Origin: Mucilaginibacter sp.
Lineage (GTDB): Bacteria; Bacteroidota; Bacteroidia; Sphingobacteriales; Sphingobacteriaceae
Reading direction: 5' to 3'
Length of the DNA: 64,000 bases
Assembly (NCBI GenBank): GCA_028288025.1
Contig: JAQBOM010000013.1
Location: forward strand, 62,001 to 126,000
In this document: positions 4,963 to 31,516 of the stretch, piece after piece
How the letters are laid out: each line of letters begins with the position of its first letter
Numbering within the stretch: the stretch's first letter is position 1
Program-made: the position numbers and the translations under genes
Notes under the pieces: model-generated
What the model saw: the letters and a program-made list of their open reading frames with translations, nothing else
Databases searched by the model: none
What the model was told of the DNA's origin: nothing

Positions 4963-4992
4963 GGTATTATAGTTTTAATGTTTTAATTCTCG

Positions 4993-5063
4993 AGGTCGGG
5001 AGCGGATTCGAACCGCTGTAAAAGGTTTTGCAGACCTCTGCCTAGCCACTCGGCCACCCGACC
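4993..5063 (-). tRNA. tRNA-Cys (GCA)
   Basis: The 71-nt cloverleaf reads on the minus strand: acceptor GGTCGGG/CCCGACC, D arm GCC...GGC, anticodon loop CTGCAAA with anticodon GCA, T arm AGCGG-TTCGAAT-CCGCT and discriminator T73, as expected for bacterial tRNA-Cys. CCA is not encoded. All stems pair, apart from one G-T wobble in the anticodon stem. Confidence 0.95.
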
Positions 5064-17399: not shown

Positions 17400-17470
17400 A
17401 GTCGCGTGACCGAGAGGATAGGTGGGAGTCTGCAAAACCCCGTACGGCAGTTCGAATCTGCCCGCGACAT
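17400..17470 (+). tRNA. tRNA-Cys-like sequence (GCA), diverged
   Basis: 71 nt, the same length as the tRNA-Cys at 4993 and alignable with it end to end. D arm ACC...GGT, anticodon loop CTGCAAA (GCA), T arm GGCAG-TTCGAAT-CTGCC and T73 are intact. Two defects stand out: an A-A mismatch at the first acceptor pair (AGTCGCG/CGCGACA) and an A-C mismatch in the anticodon stem (GGAGT/ACCCC). It could be a second, weak tRNA-Cys, a specialised tRNA-like RNA or a decaying copy. A TATATTTG box lies 89 nt upstream. Confidence 0.6.
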
Positions 17471-17491
17471 CTATAGTTGACTGACCTCGCT

Positions 17492-25798: not shown

Positions 25799-25931
25799 AT
25801 AAGGCCTATTTGCAGTAAAAATACTTTTTTCCGTGATTAATAAGTAGTATACCACAAGTACTGCAAATAAAAAACACCGGCAATTCAAAATAGCCGATGT
25901 TTGCTTAAATAGAATTGATTGATATAATTGG

Positions 25932-26996
25932 TTAGTTGAAACCGGTATCCCTAAGCCGGATGTAATCATCCAGCGTGTGCACATTCATTCCCTTATCTTT
26001 TATCTTTTTGATATACTCTGCGTTTACACCGTGATCGCGCAGCTCGCGGGCTTTATCGAGCGAAACATCGTTAAAACCGAGCGCGTGAATGCTTTTTATA
26101 AATTCTGGATTTACACCATGGTCCTTTAACTCCCGTGCTTTATCAAGCGTGATATCCTTATAACCCATTTGCTGAATGCTGCTGATAAACTGCGGGTTAA
26201 CACCATGATCTCTTAATTCCACCGCCTTGTCCAGCGATATCTTTTCATACCCCATTTTTTGAATGCTGGTTATAAACTCCGGCGTTACACCATGGTCGCG
26301 TAATTCCAGGGCCTTATCTAAAGGAATTTGCTCATGATAACCCATTTGGCGAAAACTGTTTACAAACCCCGCGTTCACGCCATGCTCGCGCAGTTCTACA
26401 ATTTTGTCGAGAGACTGGTGCCCGTAATCTTCTGTTTTAAAAAGCGCGAAATAGTCTTCCATCACCTTGCGGTTCAGATCTTGCTGTGCAAGGTCCCTTA
26501 ATTGCTGATTTGAAATACTGGCGTACCCGTTTTCTTTTAAAAATTCAAAGTAACCCTTGTTGATATCTGTAAGGAAAATATCCAGCATCAGTTCTTTATC
26601 CAGGTCCGAATAGCCCCTTTGCTGCAGGTACGATTTAAAAGCAGCATTCTCGGCAAATGTGTAAAACCCATGTCCTTTGCCGCCGGCAAATTCGCCTTTA
26701 AAGTTTATTGTGCCGGCTTCGCGGGTCAGCGCAAATGTTCCCTCGTTTCCGGTTGGCAACATGCCAGTTTCTGTTAACAGGAATGTTCTGCCGGTGTTCC
26801 AGTCTTCCCCGGTAAATTGGATATGAACTTTTTCGCCCGCGATATAGGCAACCCAGGTTCCCGGCACGTGACTGCCGCTGTTACCCGTTCTATGCATATT
26901 TTTAACGGCAACTTTTACATTTGCAGACTGCGCAAGGCTGGATAGTGCTGAAAACAGCACTGCAATAAATAGCCCGGCGATAATATTTTTTTTCAT
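25932..26996 (-). CDS. Secreted 29-residue-repeat protein (sensor paralogue 2)
   Basis: 354 aa from the ATG at 26996, which precedes a signal peptide (NIIAGLFIAVLFSALSSLAQS). A conserved beta domain (~30-110; GTWVAYIAGEKVHIQF, GTFALTREAGTINFKGEF, GHGFYTF) is followed by a helical linker and at least five tandem 29-residue helical repeats of the form GVNPQFISSIQQMGYKDITL / DKARELKDH. Both parts are shared with the M56 sensor and with the 27068 gene, from which it probably arose by duplication. No catalytic motif; the repeats look like a protein- or ligand-binding solenoid in the periplasm. Last recognised repeat gene of the operon. Confidence 0.8.
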   Translation of the reverse strand: MKKNIIAGLFIAVLFSALSSLAQSANVKVAVKNMHRTGNSGSHVPGTWVAYIAGEKVHIQFTGEDWNTGRTFLLTETGMLPTGNEGTFALTREAGTINFKGEFAGGKGHGFYTFAENAAFKSYLQQRGYSDLDKELMLDIFLTDINKGYFEFLKENGYASISNQQLRDLAQQDLNRKVMEDYFALFKTEDYGHQSLDKIVELREHGVNAGFVNSFRQMGYHEQIPLDKALELRDHGVTPEFITSIQKMGYEKISLDKAVELRDHGVNPQFISSIQQMGYKDITLDKARELKDHGVNPEFIKSIHALGFNDVSLDKARELRDHGVNAEYIKKIKDKGMNVHTLDDYIRLRDTGFN

Positions 26997-27003
26997 GACA
27001 TTA

Positions 27004-27064
27004 TTCAAATTAACAGTACTAACAATTAACCTAATCAACTTAATGCAACCCAATCAACCAACCT
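27004..27064. repeat. CCAATCAA-type word run
   Basis: AACCTAATCAAC, GCAACCCAATCAACC words of the family that builds the 17 kb hairpins, filling the gap between two repeat-protein genes. Confidence 0.55.
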
Positions 27065-27067
27065 CAA

Positions 27068-28606
27068 CTATTCACTATCCTTAAATGCATTTTTCAACCG
27101 CATATACTTCCGCAGGTCGTTTGACTTAAATCCTTTCCCCTGCATCGACGCTACATATTCGGGCGTAACGCCGGTTGATTTAAGGCCGGGCAGTTCATTT
27201 AACGGGATGTCGGTAAAGCCAAGCTTTTTGAATCCGTTGATATACTGCGGCGTAATACCCATTGATTTTAGGGGCAGAAGGCTGTGCAACGATATATCCT
27301 TATAGCCTGCTTCTTCAAACCCCCTGATATATTCAGGTGTAATGCCCATCGACTTTAACATGACCAGGTCGTGCGCCGGAATATTTTTATAACCAACAGC
27401 TTCAAAGCTTTTTATATAAGCACCATCGATGTTCGACGATTTCAATGAGATCAGGTCGTGAACCGGGATGTTTTTATAGCCCAGGTCCATGTATTCCTTT
27501 ACAAATTCCGGCGTAATGTTCATCGACTTCATGGCGGTAAGCTGATTGTAGGGAATATTATCATACCCCACTGCCTTAAATGAATTCACATACGCCGCAT
27601 CAATATTCATCGACTTATAGGCTACAAGCTGGTTAGCCGGAGGTAAACCACTCTCGCTATCGTCTTTGCGCAGACCCCTGATATAGTCGCCGGTAATGTG
27701 CTGCGATTTAAAACTTATCAGCTGGTTGAATGAAATATCTTTATACCCTGCATCGCGGATCTCTTTCACATAAGCCGCATCAATCTCCATCGATTTGCCG
27801 GCAACCAGGTGGTTGGGCGAAATATCGTTAAAGCCGTTCTCCTTCCACATTTTTATATAAGGCTCATCAATTTTCATCGACGCCATTGCTATCAGGTTAC
27901 CTCTCGACATATCTTTAAACCCGTTTCGCACCAGCATCTCTACATAGTTCCTTTTAAGGTTCACCACAAAAAAAGCAAACGCATTGCGCTCATCGTCGCC
28001 GGTTATGCCCTGGGTTTTTATATAATCATCAAATGCTTTATCAGCAACGAACTTATAGTGTCCATAACCCAGGTCATCGTCGAACTTGCCTGTAAACGTC
28101 ATGGTTCCGGCCTCTCTTTTTAGTGAGAATTCTCCTTTTTGGCCCCTGGGCAGCGACGGAAATTCGCTCAGCATAAAATCCGAATTGCTCGACCAGTGGT
28201 AGTTTTCATCATCGCTTCTGAATTCGATCATGATCTTATCGCCCTTAATGCTGGCAAACCAGCTCCCTTCATTGCGGTCAATGCCGGTAATATTCACATT
28301 AACGTCGGCGTTAACACCTATATTGATGTTCGGGATAACGATAGACGGTACCACAGCATTAACAACCGGGGTTACATTGGCGCTGACCGTTGAACCCATA
28401 ACCGGGTCAACAATTGCATTTATGGTTGACTTCACAATCGGTTTAACGCGGGTGTTAACCCGGGCATGTACCGCTTGGTTAATGTTGGTTGTTATAACAA
28501 CCGGGGTAACCGTTGCTTGTGCATTGGCGGCCGGATTGTTAAGGCAGCCCAGCAGCGGCACCAGGAAGAAATACTTCCTGAGTGCAGCGATAATTGGTTT
28601 TTTCAT
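27068..28606 (-). CDS. Secreted 29-residue-repeat protein (sensor paralogue 1)
   Basis: 512 aa. The N-terminus (RKYFFLVPLLGCLNNPAANAQ) is a possible lipoprotein signal (LLGC), and its KYFFLVPLLG is identical to the last TM segment of the neighbouring M56 sensor, marking a duplication of the sensor's C-terminal half. A valine/proline-rich low-complexity stretch (~30-95) is followed by the shared beta domain (GSWFASIKGDKIMIEF, SNSDFMLSEFPSLP, FSLKREAGTMTFTGKF, GYGHYKF). The rest is about ten 29-residue helical repeats (MGITPEYIRGFEEAGYKDIS...). Starts 7 nt after the sensor's stop codon, so co-expressed with it. Exported; binding function inferred. Confidence 0.82.
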   Translation of the reverse strand: MKKPIIAALRKYFFLVPLLGCLNNPAANAQATVTPVVITTNINQAVHARVNTRVKPIVKSTINAIVDPVMGSTVSANVTPVVNAVVPSIVIPNINIGVNADVNVNITGIDRNEGSWFASIKGDKIMIEFRSDDENYHWSSNSDFMLSEFPSLPRGQKGEFSLKREAGTMTFTGKFDDDLGYGHYKFVADKAFDDYIKTQGITGDDERNAFAFFVVNLKRNYVEMLVRNGFKDMSRGNLIAMASMKIDEPYIKMWKENGFNDISPNHLVAGKSMEIDAAYVKEIRDAGYKDISFNQLISFKSQHITGDYIRGLRKDDSESGLPPANQLVAYKSMNIDAAYVNSFKAVGYDNIPYNQLTAMKSMNITPEFVKEYMDLGYKNIPVHDLISLKSSNIDGAYIKSFEAVGYKNIPAHDLVMLKSMGITPEYIRGFEEAGYKDISLHSLLPLKSMGITPQYINGFKKLGFTDIPLNELPGLKSTGVTPEYVASMQGKGFKSNDLRKYMRLKNAFKDSE

Positions 28607-28613
28607 AATTGAT

Positions 28614-31094
28614 TTATCTGAATGCGCTTTTTAGTTCAATGTATTTGTTTAGGTCGTCCGACTTAAAGCCCTTTTCTTTCATTTGGGTAACATAATCCGG
28701 GGTAACACCCATCGCTTTTAAGGAGGTGGCCTCGTCAAGCGTGATATTGTTATAACCGATCTTCCTGAAGCCTTCGATGAAATCAGCAGTTATGCCCAAT
28801 GCTTTTAACGATGAGATATGGTCAACCGAAATGTTTTTATAACCGATATCGCGGAAACTCTGGATATACTGCGGGGTGATACCCAGTGCTTTAATGGACG
28901 AAAGCTCATCTATCGGGATGTTTTTAATGCCGGCGCTTTCAAAGCTTTTAGCGTATTCAGGCGTTATCCCGAGTGACTTGATAGAGATCAGGTTGTCAAC
29001 CGAAATATTATGATAGCCGGCAGCTTGTAAACTTTCAATAAATTGAGGTGTCACACCCACCGCTTTCATGCCGCTCAGGTTATCGGCGGAGATATTTTTA
29101 TAGCCCAATGCCGCGAAGCTTTTTACAAACTCAGGGGTAACACCCAGCGATTTTAGCGATACAAGTCCTTCAGCCGGGATGTTTTTATATCCTGCGGCCC
29201 TGAAACCTTCGATATATGCCGGTGTAACGCCAACAGCTTTCATACCGGTTAGGTCGCTCAGTGAAACATTGGTATAACCTGCCTTTTGAATAGCACTAAC
29301 ATAGCTTTCATCCACATTCAGCGCTTTAACCGATACCACGTCATCGGCGGATAATTTATTTGCCGTCTGGCTATTTTTGCCGTTCGTTCCTGCTTTGGTA
29401 TCAGCGCCATGCAGCCCGGCGATATATTTACCGGTAACGCCGGTGGCTTTAAAGCTTACCAGTTGTTCAAAAGTAATATGTGTGTAACCGGCTTTGCGGA
29501 TCTCACTTACATAAGCGCCGTTAATCCCGAGCGCTTTGCCCGATACCAGCTCATCAGGCGTTAAAGTATAGCCCATCTCCTTCCAGAAACGAATGTAGGG
29601 GGCATCAACTTTAAGCGCGCCCATGGCAATCAGTTCATCTTTGGTAAGGTGCTTATAGCCATTGCTTTCCAGCATGGTAATATAATCCTTCCTGATATTG
29701 ATAATAAAAAACGCGAATTCATCCCCTTCTTCAACACCTTTAATACCATAGTTCGCCAATGTGTTTTTAAATTCGGTGCTGGCTTTAAATTTATAGTGGC
29801 CGTAACCCTGGCCGCCGTCAAATTTGCCGTTAAATGTTATCGTACCGGCTTCGCGGGTTAAGGTAAAATCACCTTTTTTATCGCGCGGCAGCGTCGAAAA
29901 TTCGCTCAGCATAAAATCGGAGTTGCTCGACCAGTTATGATCATCCGAATCACTGCGGAACTCAATTTTTACTTTATCATTTTTTATGGTAGCAAACCAG
30001 CTTCCCTCGGTTTCGGTATTATTTGACCAACGCGGATTATTTGAATGGCTTTTTACTTTGGGTTTAACGATCTGCGCATAAACTTGCGGGTCGTTTAGTG
30101 CGCAGGCCAGTATCCCCAGCAATGGCACCAGGAAAAAGTATTTCCACATAATATGGATGTTTGACCGTTTGGAGTTCATCATCAATATCCTTCTTTTTAA
30201 TAACGACTGGTTATAATTTGTGGTAATGCCCAACGATAAATGCGGGGCCGATACCTTTAGCAGGCTCATCTGGTAGCTCGACCGTTCGATCTCCTTATGT
30301 TCAAGCACGGCATCATCGGTTAAAAATTCCAGGTTGCTTTCCACTTCCGTGCGATAGAGCCAGGCAAAAGGGTTAAACCACTGCAGCACCAACACCAGCT
30401 CGGCTATCAAAATATCAAAGCTATGGCCTTGCCGGATGTGAATTTTTTCGTGGAGCAGTATCTGGCTGTAGGTATCCCAGTCATATTTTTCGGGATTGAT
30501 AAAAATGTTATTGCCAAATGAGCATGGCGCTTTATCGCCGGTTAGCTCAATAATGCGGAACTTGCCGTCCCTGATAACCGGTTTGGTATATGCCTGGAAA
30601 AGCAATACCACCAGCTGAAGCAAAAGGTTTAAACCAAATGCGGCAACACCTATCCAATAGATATAGAACAACCATTTGATAACGCGTGGTAATAACGATG
30701 TTGTTGCTGCGGTGGTCGTGGTAGTATTTTTTATGGCTGCTGCCTGAACGATAGTCGCTTGAGCGGCCCTTGCTATGGTATGATTAACTTTTGGCGATGC
30801 ATTGGCTGTTGCGCTTGCTGTAACAGCGGCTTTTATGGCAGCCTGCTTTTGCGTCACCACGTTTTGCGCATAGCTATTAACGGCATCAACCGCTGTATTA
30901 GCCGCAGGGGCGGGGCTTTCCCTGAAAGCCCATTGCTGCGGTATAGGTATAAGTGGCAGGCCAAAGGATAACGCCATGCAAAAAACCAATATCCACCGGT
31001 TTAATTTGTAAAAAGTTTCCTTTTGTAATAATACTTTATAAAACAGCAGGCAAACTGAAATAAGCAGCGCCACGTGCAAAATGTATGGTATCAT
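28614..31094 (-). CDS. BlaR1-like M56 metallopeptidase sensor with C-terminal repeats
   Basis: 826 aa. The N-terminal ~330 residues form the BlaR1/MecR1-type M56 domain: TM helices near 1-55 and 140-175, zinc motif LLHEKIHIRQGH (HExxH) near 215, TDDAVLEH, and a TM segment KYFFLVPLLGILAC near 322. In place of the usual penicillin-binding sensor there is a beta domain (GSWFATIKNDKVKIEF ... GYGHYKF) and about eleven 29-residue helical repeats (GVTPEFVKSFAALGYKNISA). It should sense a periplasmic signal and trigger cleavage of the BlaI-type repressor encoded just upstream (ATGA overlap). The signal is unknown; beta-lactam sensing is not supported by the sensor domain. Confidence 0.9.
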   Translation of the reverse strand: MIPYILHVALLISVCLLFYKVLLQKETFYKLNRWILVFCMALSFGLPLIPIPQQWAFRESPAPAANTAVDAVNSYAQNVVTQKQAAIKAAVTASATANASPKVNHTIARAAQATIVQAAAIKNTTTTTAATTSLLPRVIKWLFYIYWIGVAAFGLNLLLQLVVLLFQAYTKPVIRDGKFRIIELTGDKAPCSFGNNIFINPEKYDWDTYSQILLHEKIHIRQGHSFDILIAELVLVLQWFNPFAWLYRTEVESNLEFLTDDAVLEHKEIERSSYQMSLLKVSAPHLSLGITTNYNQSLLKRRILMMNSKRSNIHIMWKYFFLVPLLGILACALNDPQVYAQIVKPKVKSHSNNPRWSNNTETEGSWFATIKNDKVKIEFRSDSDDHNWSSNSDFMLSEFSTLPRDKKGDFTLTREAGTITFNGKFDGGQGYGHYKFKASTEFKNTLANYGIKGVEEGDEFAFFIINIRKDYITMLESNGYKHLTKDELIAMGALKVDAPYIRFWKEMGYTLTPDELVSGKALGINGAYVSEIRKAGYTHITFEQLVSFKATGVTGKYIAGLHGADTKAGTNGKNSQTANKLSADDVVSVKALNVDESYVSAIQKAGYTNVSLSDLTGMKAVGVTPAYIEGFRAAGYKNIPAEGLVSLKSLGVTPEFVKSFAALGYKNISADNLSGMKAVGVTPQFIESLQAAGYHNISVDNLISIKSLGITPEYAKSFESAGIKNIPIDELSSIKALGITPQYIQSFRDIGYKNISVDHISSLKALGITADFIEGFRKIGYNNITLDEATSLKAMGVTPDYVTQMKEKGFKSDDLNKYIELKSAFR

Positions 31095-31453
31095 TTTTTT
31101 TGTGATTTAATAAGGTTTACTATTTCATTTAATTCCTCTTCCGATATCTTTTGCTCCTTCGCAAAAAACATCAGCATATTGGGGTACGAGCTGTCGAAAT
31201 ATTGGGTTACGATATCTTTCATGGCATGCTGCTGATACAGCGCTTTTGATATGACAGGGTAATAGCGGAAAACGTTACCAACCGCTTCATGTTCAAGGAA
31301 ACCTTTGTCTTCCAAAATCTTTACCATAGTGGCAATGGTATTATAATGCGGCTTCGGATCGGGCATTTCGTTTATGATCTCTTTGATAAATGCATGCCCC
31401 AGTTGCCACATAGCCTGCATTATTTGTTCTTCCCTTTTAGCCAGTTTTTGCAT
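31091..31453 (-). CDS. BlaI/MecI/CopY-type repressor
   Basis: 120 aa, the usual size of this family. A winged helix (~5-75: LAKREEQIMQAMWQLGHAFIKEIINEM, HYNTIATMVKILEDKGFLEHEAVGNVFRYYPVISK) and a C-terminal helical dimer region (MLMFFAKEQKISEEELNEIVNLIK). Family members dimerise on palindromic operators and are inactivated by their M56 partner; the partner here overlaps by four bases. Two identical dyads upstream (ACTAATnnATTAGT) are the likely autoregulatory operators. ATG at 31453 is the natural start. Confidence 0.95.
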   Translation of the reverse strand: MQKLAKREEQIMQAMWQLGHAFIKEIINEMPDPKPHYNTIATMVKILEDKGFLEHEAVGNVFRYYPVISKALYQQHAMKDIVTQYFDSSYPNMLMFFAKEQKISEEELNEIVNLIKSQKK

Positions 31454-31480: not shown

Positions 31481-31516
31481 TACTAATAAATTAGTATTAC
31501 AACTAATCGATTAGTA
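31481..31516 (-). promoter_or_regulatory. Tandem operator dyads for the BlaI-type repressor
   Basis: ACTAATAAATTAGT (31482-31495) and ACTAATCGATTAGT (31502-31515) are two perfect dyads with the same arms and a 2-bp spacer. Their centres lie exactly 20 bp apart, two turns on one DNA face, and 28 bp upstream of the repressor start. Confidence 0.75.

Follow-up and report, generated by a model that had tools for sequence, protein, structure and literature searches.

A Mucilaginibacter BlaI/M56 operon encoding a sensor with a beta-domain and helical-repeat ectodomain and two exported relatives of that ectodomain

The closest described relatives of the locus presented here are the BlaI-BlaR1 and MecI-MecR1 systems of staphylococci and Bacillus. 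In Staphylococcus aureus, BlaR1 carries a gluzincin signature formed by H201EXXH and E242XXXD, its direct cleavage of BlaI has been shown, and it is shed by the signal peptidase of the bacterium right after its last transmembrane helix (PMC9834060). More distant points of comparison are CopR/CopY, whose operator is TACAnnTGTA (PMC7253601), and RsiV/SigV, a lysozyme receptor system (PMC4183432). Here we describe a four-gene BlaI/M56 operon from a soil-dwelling Mucilaginibacter, contained in a stretch of 64,000 nucleotides (contig JAQBOM010000013.1, positions 62,001 to 126,000; hereafter the window), in which the sensor carries a different ectodomain and is followed by two exported relatives of it.

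The four genes form a single run on the minus strand, from 31453 to 25932: a blaI-type repressor (120 aa, 31091..31453), an M56 (BlaR1-type) sensor-protease (826 aa, 28614..31094) and two exported proteins, hereafter copy 1 (512 aa, 27068..28606) and copy 2 (354 aa, 25932..26996). The end of blaI and the beginning of the sensor gene share an ATGA, 7 bp separate the sensor from copy 1, and about 71 bp separate copy 1 from copy 2 when the latter is counted from the ATG at 26996, which is more likely to be its start than the upstream TTG of the mechanical open reading frame; positions, overlap and tight spacing were all as an earlier reading of the letters (the sequence-only reading) had placed them. 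Upstream of blaI, at a distance of 28 bp, lie two palindromes of the BlaI operator type, TACTAATAAATTAGTA and AACTAATCGATTAGTA (31481..31516, minus strand). At the other end, a terminator-like hairpin followed by a U6 run (25864..25900, minus strand; minimum free energy -14.1 kcal/mol, z -2.8) stands just past copy 2 and the run is therefore a bounded four-gene unit. One related locus (L082) has an identical four-gene arrangement, with a sensor 92% identical to that of the window.

The repressor belongs to the BlaI/MecI family, scoring 111 bits against PF03965 Penicillinase_R (E-value 5.5e-32; curated cut-off 22.6), and 44 bits against TIGR02698 CopY_TcrY, under the cut-off of that model. The sensor belongs to peptidase family M56 (PF05569, 51.3 bits, E-value 1.3e-13; cut-off 31) and its complete gluzincin motif (HEXXH, EXXXD), formed by residues H215, E216, H219, E256 and D260, is invariant in 54/54 sensor homologues, the 37 residues between H219 and E256 equalling the distance between H205 and E242 in S. 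aureus BlaR1. In a Foldseek search with the sensor model, its N-terminal half matched the solved BlaR1 structures 8exq, 8exp and 8exr (8exq and 8exr from S. aureus) with probability 1.00, at E-values (0.002-0.017) that are moderate only. The host genome holds six BlaI-M56 pairs in total. The C-terminal halves of the five others differ from one another, one of them resembling by eye a TonB C-terminal domain, and none of these pairs has a TACTAATnnATTAGTA-type operator.

The external half of the sensor is where it departs from BlaR1. A Pfam scan found no penicillin-binding/transpeptidase domain, in agreement with the sequence-only reading, and the NCBIfam BlaR1 equivalog matched the protease part only, scoring 16 bits where its cut-off is 400. 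In the AlphaFold2 model, built from 54 sequences (mean predicted local distance difference test score, pLDDT, of 80), transmembrane helices and a protease domain are followed by an ectodomain in which a beta domain and repeats take the place of the penicillin-binding domain: after the last transmembrane helix (residues ~313-333) come six strands (~363-438) and then a two-helix repeat solenoid (~456-824), the placement of the domains relative to each other being uncertain (predicted TM-score 0.45). The part of the gene encoding the beta domain (residues 357-478; 29661..30026, minus strand) is conserved among 69 aligned sequences and, when modelled alone, again yields six strands (pLDDT 85.6). 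Eleven 29-residue helical repeats had been counted from the letters; the period holds, with a lag-29 self-identity of 34-50% in the sensor, copy 1 and copy 2 against a mean of 6-7%, and the count was close, the model showing 12 two-helix units of 29 residues each. No family was found for the beta domain or the repeats in Pfam, NCBIfam, PHROGs or PADLOC beyond weak repeat-composition matches. The solenoid weakly resembles BurrH (PDB 4cj9; Foldseek E-value 0.011). Scattered lipocalin-like and polyketide-cyclase-like fold matches of the beta domain (E-value 0.02 or worse, low TM-score) were not interpreted, and a phmmer match to a designed nanocage (8v2d) was read as a match of repeat composition. 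Just after the last transmembrane helix, 60 of 72 sensors carry a LN.P.[AV].[AGS] motif that resembles a signal peptidase site.

Sensor, copy 1 and copy 2 align with invariant columns across the beta domain and share the 29-residue period, so that both downstream proteins possess the beta domain and repeats of the sensor, as first proposed from the letters. Copy 1 consists of a signal sequence, a long, low-complexity linker with repeated (V/A)xPVV motifs (28291-28516, residues ~31-105), the beta domain and repeats, while copy 2 has an ordinary signal peptide (MKKNIIAGLFIAVLFSALSSLAQ), the beta domain and LDKARELRDHGVNPEFI-type repeats. The string KYFFLVPLLG is common to the last transmembrane helix of the sensor and the signal sequence of copy 1, and WKYFFLLPL is retained in some related copy 1 proteins. 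The earlier observation that one exported protein keeps the sequence of that helix as its signal is borne out, and the signal sequence of copy 1 is read as derived from the helix. In a beta-domain tree, copy 1 proteins form one clade (100/97) that groups with a Mucilaginibacter sensor (96/86), a placement that fits the shared KYFFLVPLLG; by these sequence criteria, copy 1 descends from a Mucilaginibacter sensor. Copy 2 proteins form a separate, older clade (100/100), which includes the exported protein of locus L159, the partner of a different M56 subtype. The proposal that both exported proteins are duplicates of the C-terminal half of the sensor is therefore supported for copy 1, which groups with a Mucilaginibacter sensor, and is not supported for copy 2, which stands in its own clade. 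Constraining all exported proteins together cost 6.6 log-likelihood units and was not rejected (approximately unbiased test, p-AU 0.17), and because of this two origins for the exported copies are favoured by the sequences, not proven. Exported beta-repeat genes were found immediately downstream of the sensor in six loci (L080-L084 and L160), all of them Mucilaginibacter-like. In one locus (L081:7671-8930), a copy 1-type N-terminus (WKHFFLLLLMGC plus a VTPVV-rich linker) and a beta domain of the copy 2 type appear to be fused, the pattern that loss of the middle gene would leave. No match to copy 1 was found in a plasmid collection, and an exported homologue from another class gave only weak repeat-type matches there (E-value 8e-6 and weaker), including transcription activator-like effector (TALE)-type genes of a plant pathogen, which were not used further.

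The palindromes upstream of blaI (ACTAATAAATTAGT and ACTAATCGATTAGT, with starts 20 bp apart) are the only exact matches to ACTAATnnATTAGT in the window, and CTAATnnATTAG precedes blaI in 74 of the 75 loci that combine blaI with a beta-repeat sensor. No CTAATnnATTAG was found near the five other host BlaI-M56 pairs, L159 or L161-L165. In related genomes the palindrome TACTAATnnATTAGTA also stands ahead of exported copies distant from blaI and ahead of certain MacB-like permeases. The operator was found upstream of exported genes with no blaI or M56 gene nearby in five loci (L088, L090, L096, L239 and L243), two of which illustrate how far apart the genes may be: in one genome (L088) the sensor lies on another contig than the operator-bearing exported gene and in another, assembled as a single contig (L239), the sensor operon is located about 1 Mb away and has an operator of its own. 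Because the same operator precedes exported genes unlinked from blaI, the sequences suggest common BlaI control of sensor and exported copies, in trans too, and the expectation that the repeat genes would be co-regulated with blaI gains support from the same observation, as far as sequence evidence reaches.

The pattern TACTAATnnATTAGTW was then searched in 101 Mucilaginibacter genomes, where its count was far above that of the reversed control. There were 40 full-symmetric site clusters (L234 counted), of which 30 belonged to blaI, in most cases 27-29 bases ahead of the gene, and 10 stood elsewhere, distributed as 3 before exported copies, 4 before permeases and 3 others. The four permeases, of 785-794 residues and with MacB_PCD and FtsX domains, have the operator 67-94 bp upstream; in several genomes (G022, G032, G413 and those of L080, L081 and L083) a MacB-like permease gene is also oriented divergently to the blaI promoter, and in one case (L252/L096) a permease directly follows an exported copy. 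Beyond the genus, 25 genomes were scanned and 17 of them had the exact site, once each and always at the blaI operon (contig coordinates), and therefore the predicted output of BlaI there is blaI plus the sensor only. Isolated asymmetric matches in six further loci belonged to no consistent gene class and were treated as chance. Two operons are decaying: in one (L234, G397:C82) blaI has an in-frame stop, and in the other (L281, G005:C368) blaI is intact and the sensor breaks off after about 43 residues, in a genome that still has an operator ahead of a permease.

Approximately 85,000 genomes were scanned with one beta-domain peptide pattern. The best 80 loci, which were kept, were nearly all in named Bacteroidota (Mucilaginibacter, Pedobacter, Arcticibacter, Flavobacterium and Chitinophagaceae), and 76 of these 80 had adjacent blaI and M56 genes, that of L159 included. 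By sequence, the sensor module is thus a conserved Bacteroidota family rather than an oddity of one genome. Among 297 genomes spread over the phylum, 44 matched, many by the repeat alone; these bare-repeat matches were single-transmembrane proteins of ~230-290 residues, in one family, encoded beside housekeeping genes and without blaI. Since 76/80 beta-domain loci stand beside blaI and the repeat-only matches lack it, the beta-plus-repeat module is to be assigned, from gene neighbourhood, to BlaI/M56 systems and the bare repeat to a wider use. The sequence-only reading had named, as an objection to itself, that the repeat might be found mostly in unrelated contexts; this is not so for the beta-plus-repeat module, and the bare repeat does turn up in unrelated proteins too. 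In another class of the phylum, the bare repeat lay in a conserved neighbourhood, without blaI, in six loci, two of which (L167 and L169) had ferredoxin-NADP-reductase-like and alaS genes nearby. Two loci of another class (L163 and L164) have, beside blaI, giant M56-type sensors of ~1050-1095 residues that carry a beta domain and in which nine repeats were detected. A metagenome-assembled genome titled Williamsia sp. (JADCRZ010000005.1) contained a Sphingobacteriaceae-like, Mucilaginibacter-like operon, and its label is probably wrong or the assembly chimeric.

We favour, by a modest margin of belief, the view that these genes make up a self-regulating BlaI/M56 envelope-sensing operon. By homology, BlaI bound to the two palindromes would repress the operon; a periplasmic ligand, or membrane or cell-wall damage, would be perceived by the beta-plus-solenoid ectodomain of the sensor; and the cytoplasmic gluzincin would then cut BlaI, as BlaR1 does, relieving repression. 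Autoregulation of BlaI through the palindrome is very likely, control of the exported copies by BlaI is, from operator position, nearly as well founded, and derepression through M56 cleavage, by analogy with BlaR1, is likely. The output predicted from the sequences comprises the sensor and the two exported ectodomain relatives, to which some related species would add more exported copies as well as MacB-like permeases. The exported copies may act as soluble binders of the ligand of the sensor, sequestering it and in this way shielding the envelope and weakening the signal, a role to which we give even chances; the permeases, where present, would remove the ligand. That this ligand is an envelope-active peptide or a similar compound is a guess and a doubtful one, the permeases and the envelope position making an envelope-active compound plausible at most. 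If the sensor is itself shed, the exported copies would be a dedicated form of something that it already releases. A further possibility, which we put forward tentatively, is that the receptor ectodomain is itself the effector, in a one-component response where the receptor becomes a decoy. In most Bacteroidota with the unit, BlaI would control no genes but its own and that of the sensor, and induction would then simply raise the amount of ectodomain, perhaps released by shedding at the conserved signal-peptidase-like motif; in Mucilaginibacter the effector would have been copied into separate soluble exported proteins, able to leave the operon and yet keep the operator, with MacB-like permeases recruited in addition.

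Several observations weigh against the envelope-sensing operon as we have drawn it. We infer BlaI binding to the palindrome from the position and conservation of the latter. A PDB fold search with the beta domain returned nothing significant, and hence no fold neighbour pointing to a ligand. The host genome has no other full ACTAATnnATTAGT-type site, so that the predicted regulon here is the operon alone, with no permease; matches with 2 mismatches were not above the reversed-pattern control and thus at chance level. As for the related genomes, they contain 39-136 MacB_PCD matches each, which makes adjacency alone weak, and only operator position was counted. Finding permeases at 4 of the 10 clusters off blaI has a chance probability of ~1e-4 (rough binomial, permeases taken as ~2.5% of genes), with the qualification that the permeases were singled out as a class once the data had been inspected.

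The exported proteins could instead be co-receptors or ligand presenters that collect or relay a signal from the outer membrane or the peptidoglycan and pair with the sensor by solenoid-solenoid contacts. This alternative, which we judge unlikely while giving it more weight than any other rival, draws on a second arrangement found in L159 (a Bacteroidota metagenome-assembled genome) and in L161 and L162 (from other classes of the phylum), in which BlaI and an M56 sensor with repeats and little or no detected beta domain are followed by an exported beta-repeat protein that could supply the missing part; the beta domain seems, from these sequences, to have split off from the sensor. The grouping of the L159 exported protein with copy 2 and the presence of the blaI operator before exported genes point the same way. 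However, most sensors of the family have a beta domain of their own and no exported partner nearby, and a presenter is not generally needed.

Somewhat less probable is a role in envelope homeostasis rather than defence, with cell-wall fragments, or lipoprotein or outer-membrane stress, as the stimulus and the beta-repeat proteins acting in a structural or chaperone-like manner. A peptidoglycan dipeptide inactivates BlaI in Bacillus (PMC3305447) and, outside Mucilaginibacter, the operon itself is the only predicted target, implying no export or resistance gene there. On the contrary, several Mucilaginibacter genomes have MacB-like permeases under the blaI operator, which suggests export or detoxification. 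It is very improbable that tandem duplication left the exported genes as drifting by-products with no role: among close relatives they occur only in some Mucilaginibacter-like lineages, repeat number varies and one apparent fusion of copy 1 and copy 2 exists (L081), but their frames have stayed open over a long divergence, the copy 2 clade standing apart from the sensors, their signal sequences are conserved and the operator is conserved even where unlinked from blaI. An ordinary BlaR1 beta-lactam resistance operon, as BlaI and M56 homology might lead one to propose, is scarcely credible given a sensor without a penicillin-binding domain, an operon without a beta-lactamase gene and a host genome without a second strong operator.

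BlaI/M56 pairs are common in Bacteroidota and easily labelled as beta-lactam sensors, and the present unit shows one subfamily with a different conserved ectodomain. Now that there is a defined operator, a regulon predicted from it and a set of exported partners known by name, the ligand of BlaR1 homologues lacking a penicillin-binding domain becomes testable with the bacterium's own soluble copies of the ectodomain, and if these do sequester the ligand, the receptor would be supplying its own decoy. Full-text search of the open-licence literature found no description of the beta-repeat module or the operon, in line with the sequence-only reading, whose author knew of no system with this gene set. 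Unrelated to the operon, ARAGORN predicted two tRNA-Cys (gca) genes in the window, at 4992-5063 (minus strand) and 17400-17471 (plus strand), about 12 kb apart, only the first of which reaches the Rfam tRNA threshold.

Compared with known systems, the locus shares with staphylococcal and Bacillus BlaI-BlaR1 (MecI-MecR1) a BlaI-type repressor and an M56 gluzincin protease in one operon with a palindromic operator, an HEXXH...EXXXD motif of identical spacing, a protease on the cytoplasmic side whose external sensor part comes after the last transmembrane helix, and a signal-peptidase-like motif right after that helix, where BlaR1 is shed (PMC9834060). It differs from BlaR1 in that its ectodomain is a beta domain plus a helical solenoid instead of a penicillin-binding domain, in that Asp210 of BlaR1 is a histidine (H224), and in that the operon carries two exported ectodomain relatives in place of a beta-lactamase or PBP2a (penicillin-binding protein 2a) target; no gene of either kind was found in the operon, and in the host genome the operator is unique to it. 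CopR/CopY belongs to the same repressor superfamily and its operator has the same two-fold symmetric TAC...GTA form, whereas the palindrome described here (TACTAATnnATTAGTA) is longer and the partner is a protease-type sensor, with neither direct copper sensing nor a copper exporter. The resemblance to the two-helix repeats of BurrH and TALE-like proteins (PDB 4cj9) is a weak one of fold and concerns the solenoid only: those repeats have 33-35 residues and read DNA, while the ones described here have a period of 29, are found in the outer part of a membrane receptor and in proteins with signal sequences, and give no ground for supposing that they bind DNA. MacB_PCD/FtsX-type permeases of Bacteroidota are connected to the system through the operator that some of them share in related genomes, and are not part of the operon in the window. 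The external domain of RsiV binds an envelope-attacking protein and proteolysis then releases gene expression, by means of an anti-sigma factor and regulated intramembrane proteolysis. RsiV/SigV is an analogue of the proposed sensing logic and not a homologue, the proteins being unrelated. The signalling principle is thus that of known BlaI/M56 systems, and what is new is the ectodomain, its exported partners and the predicted regulon.

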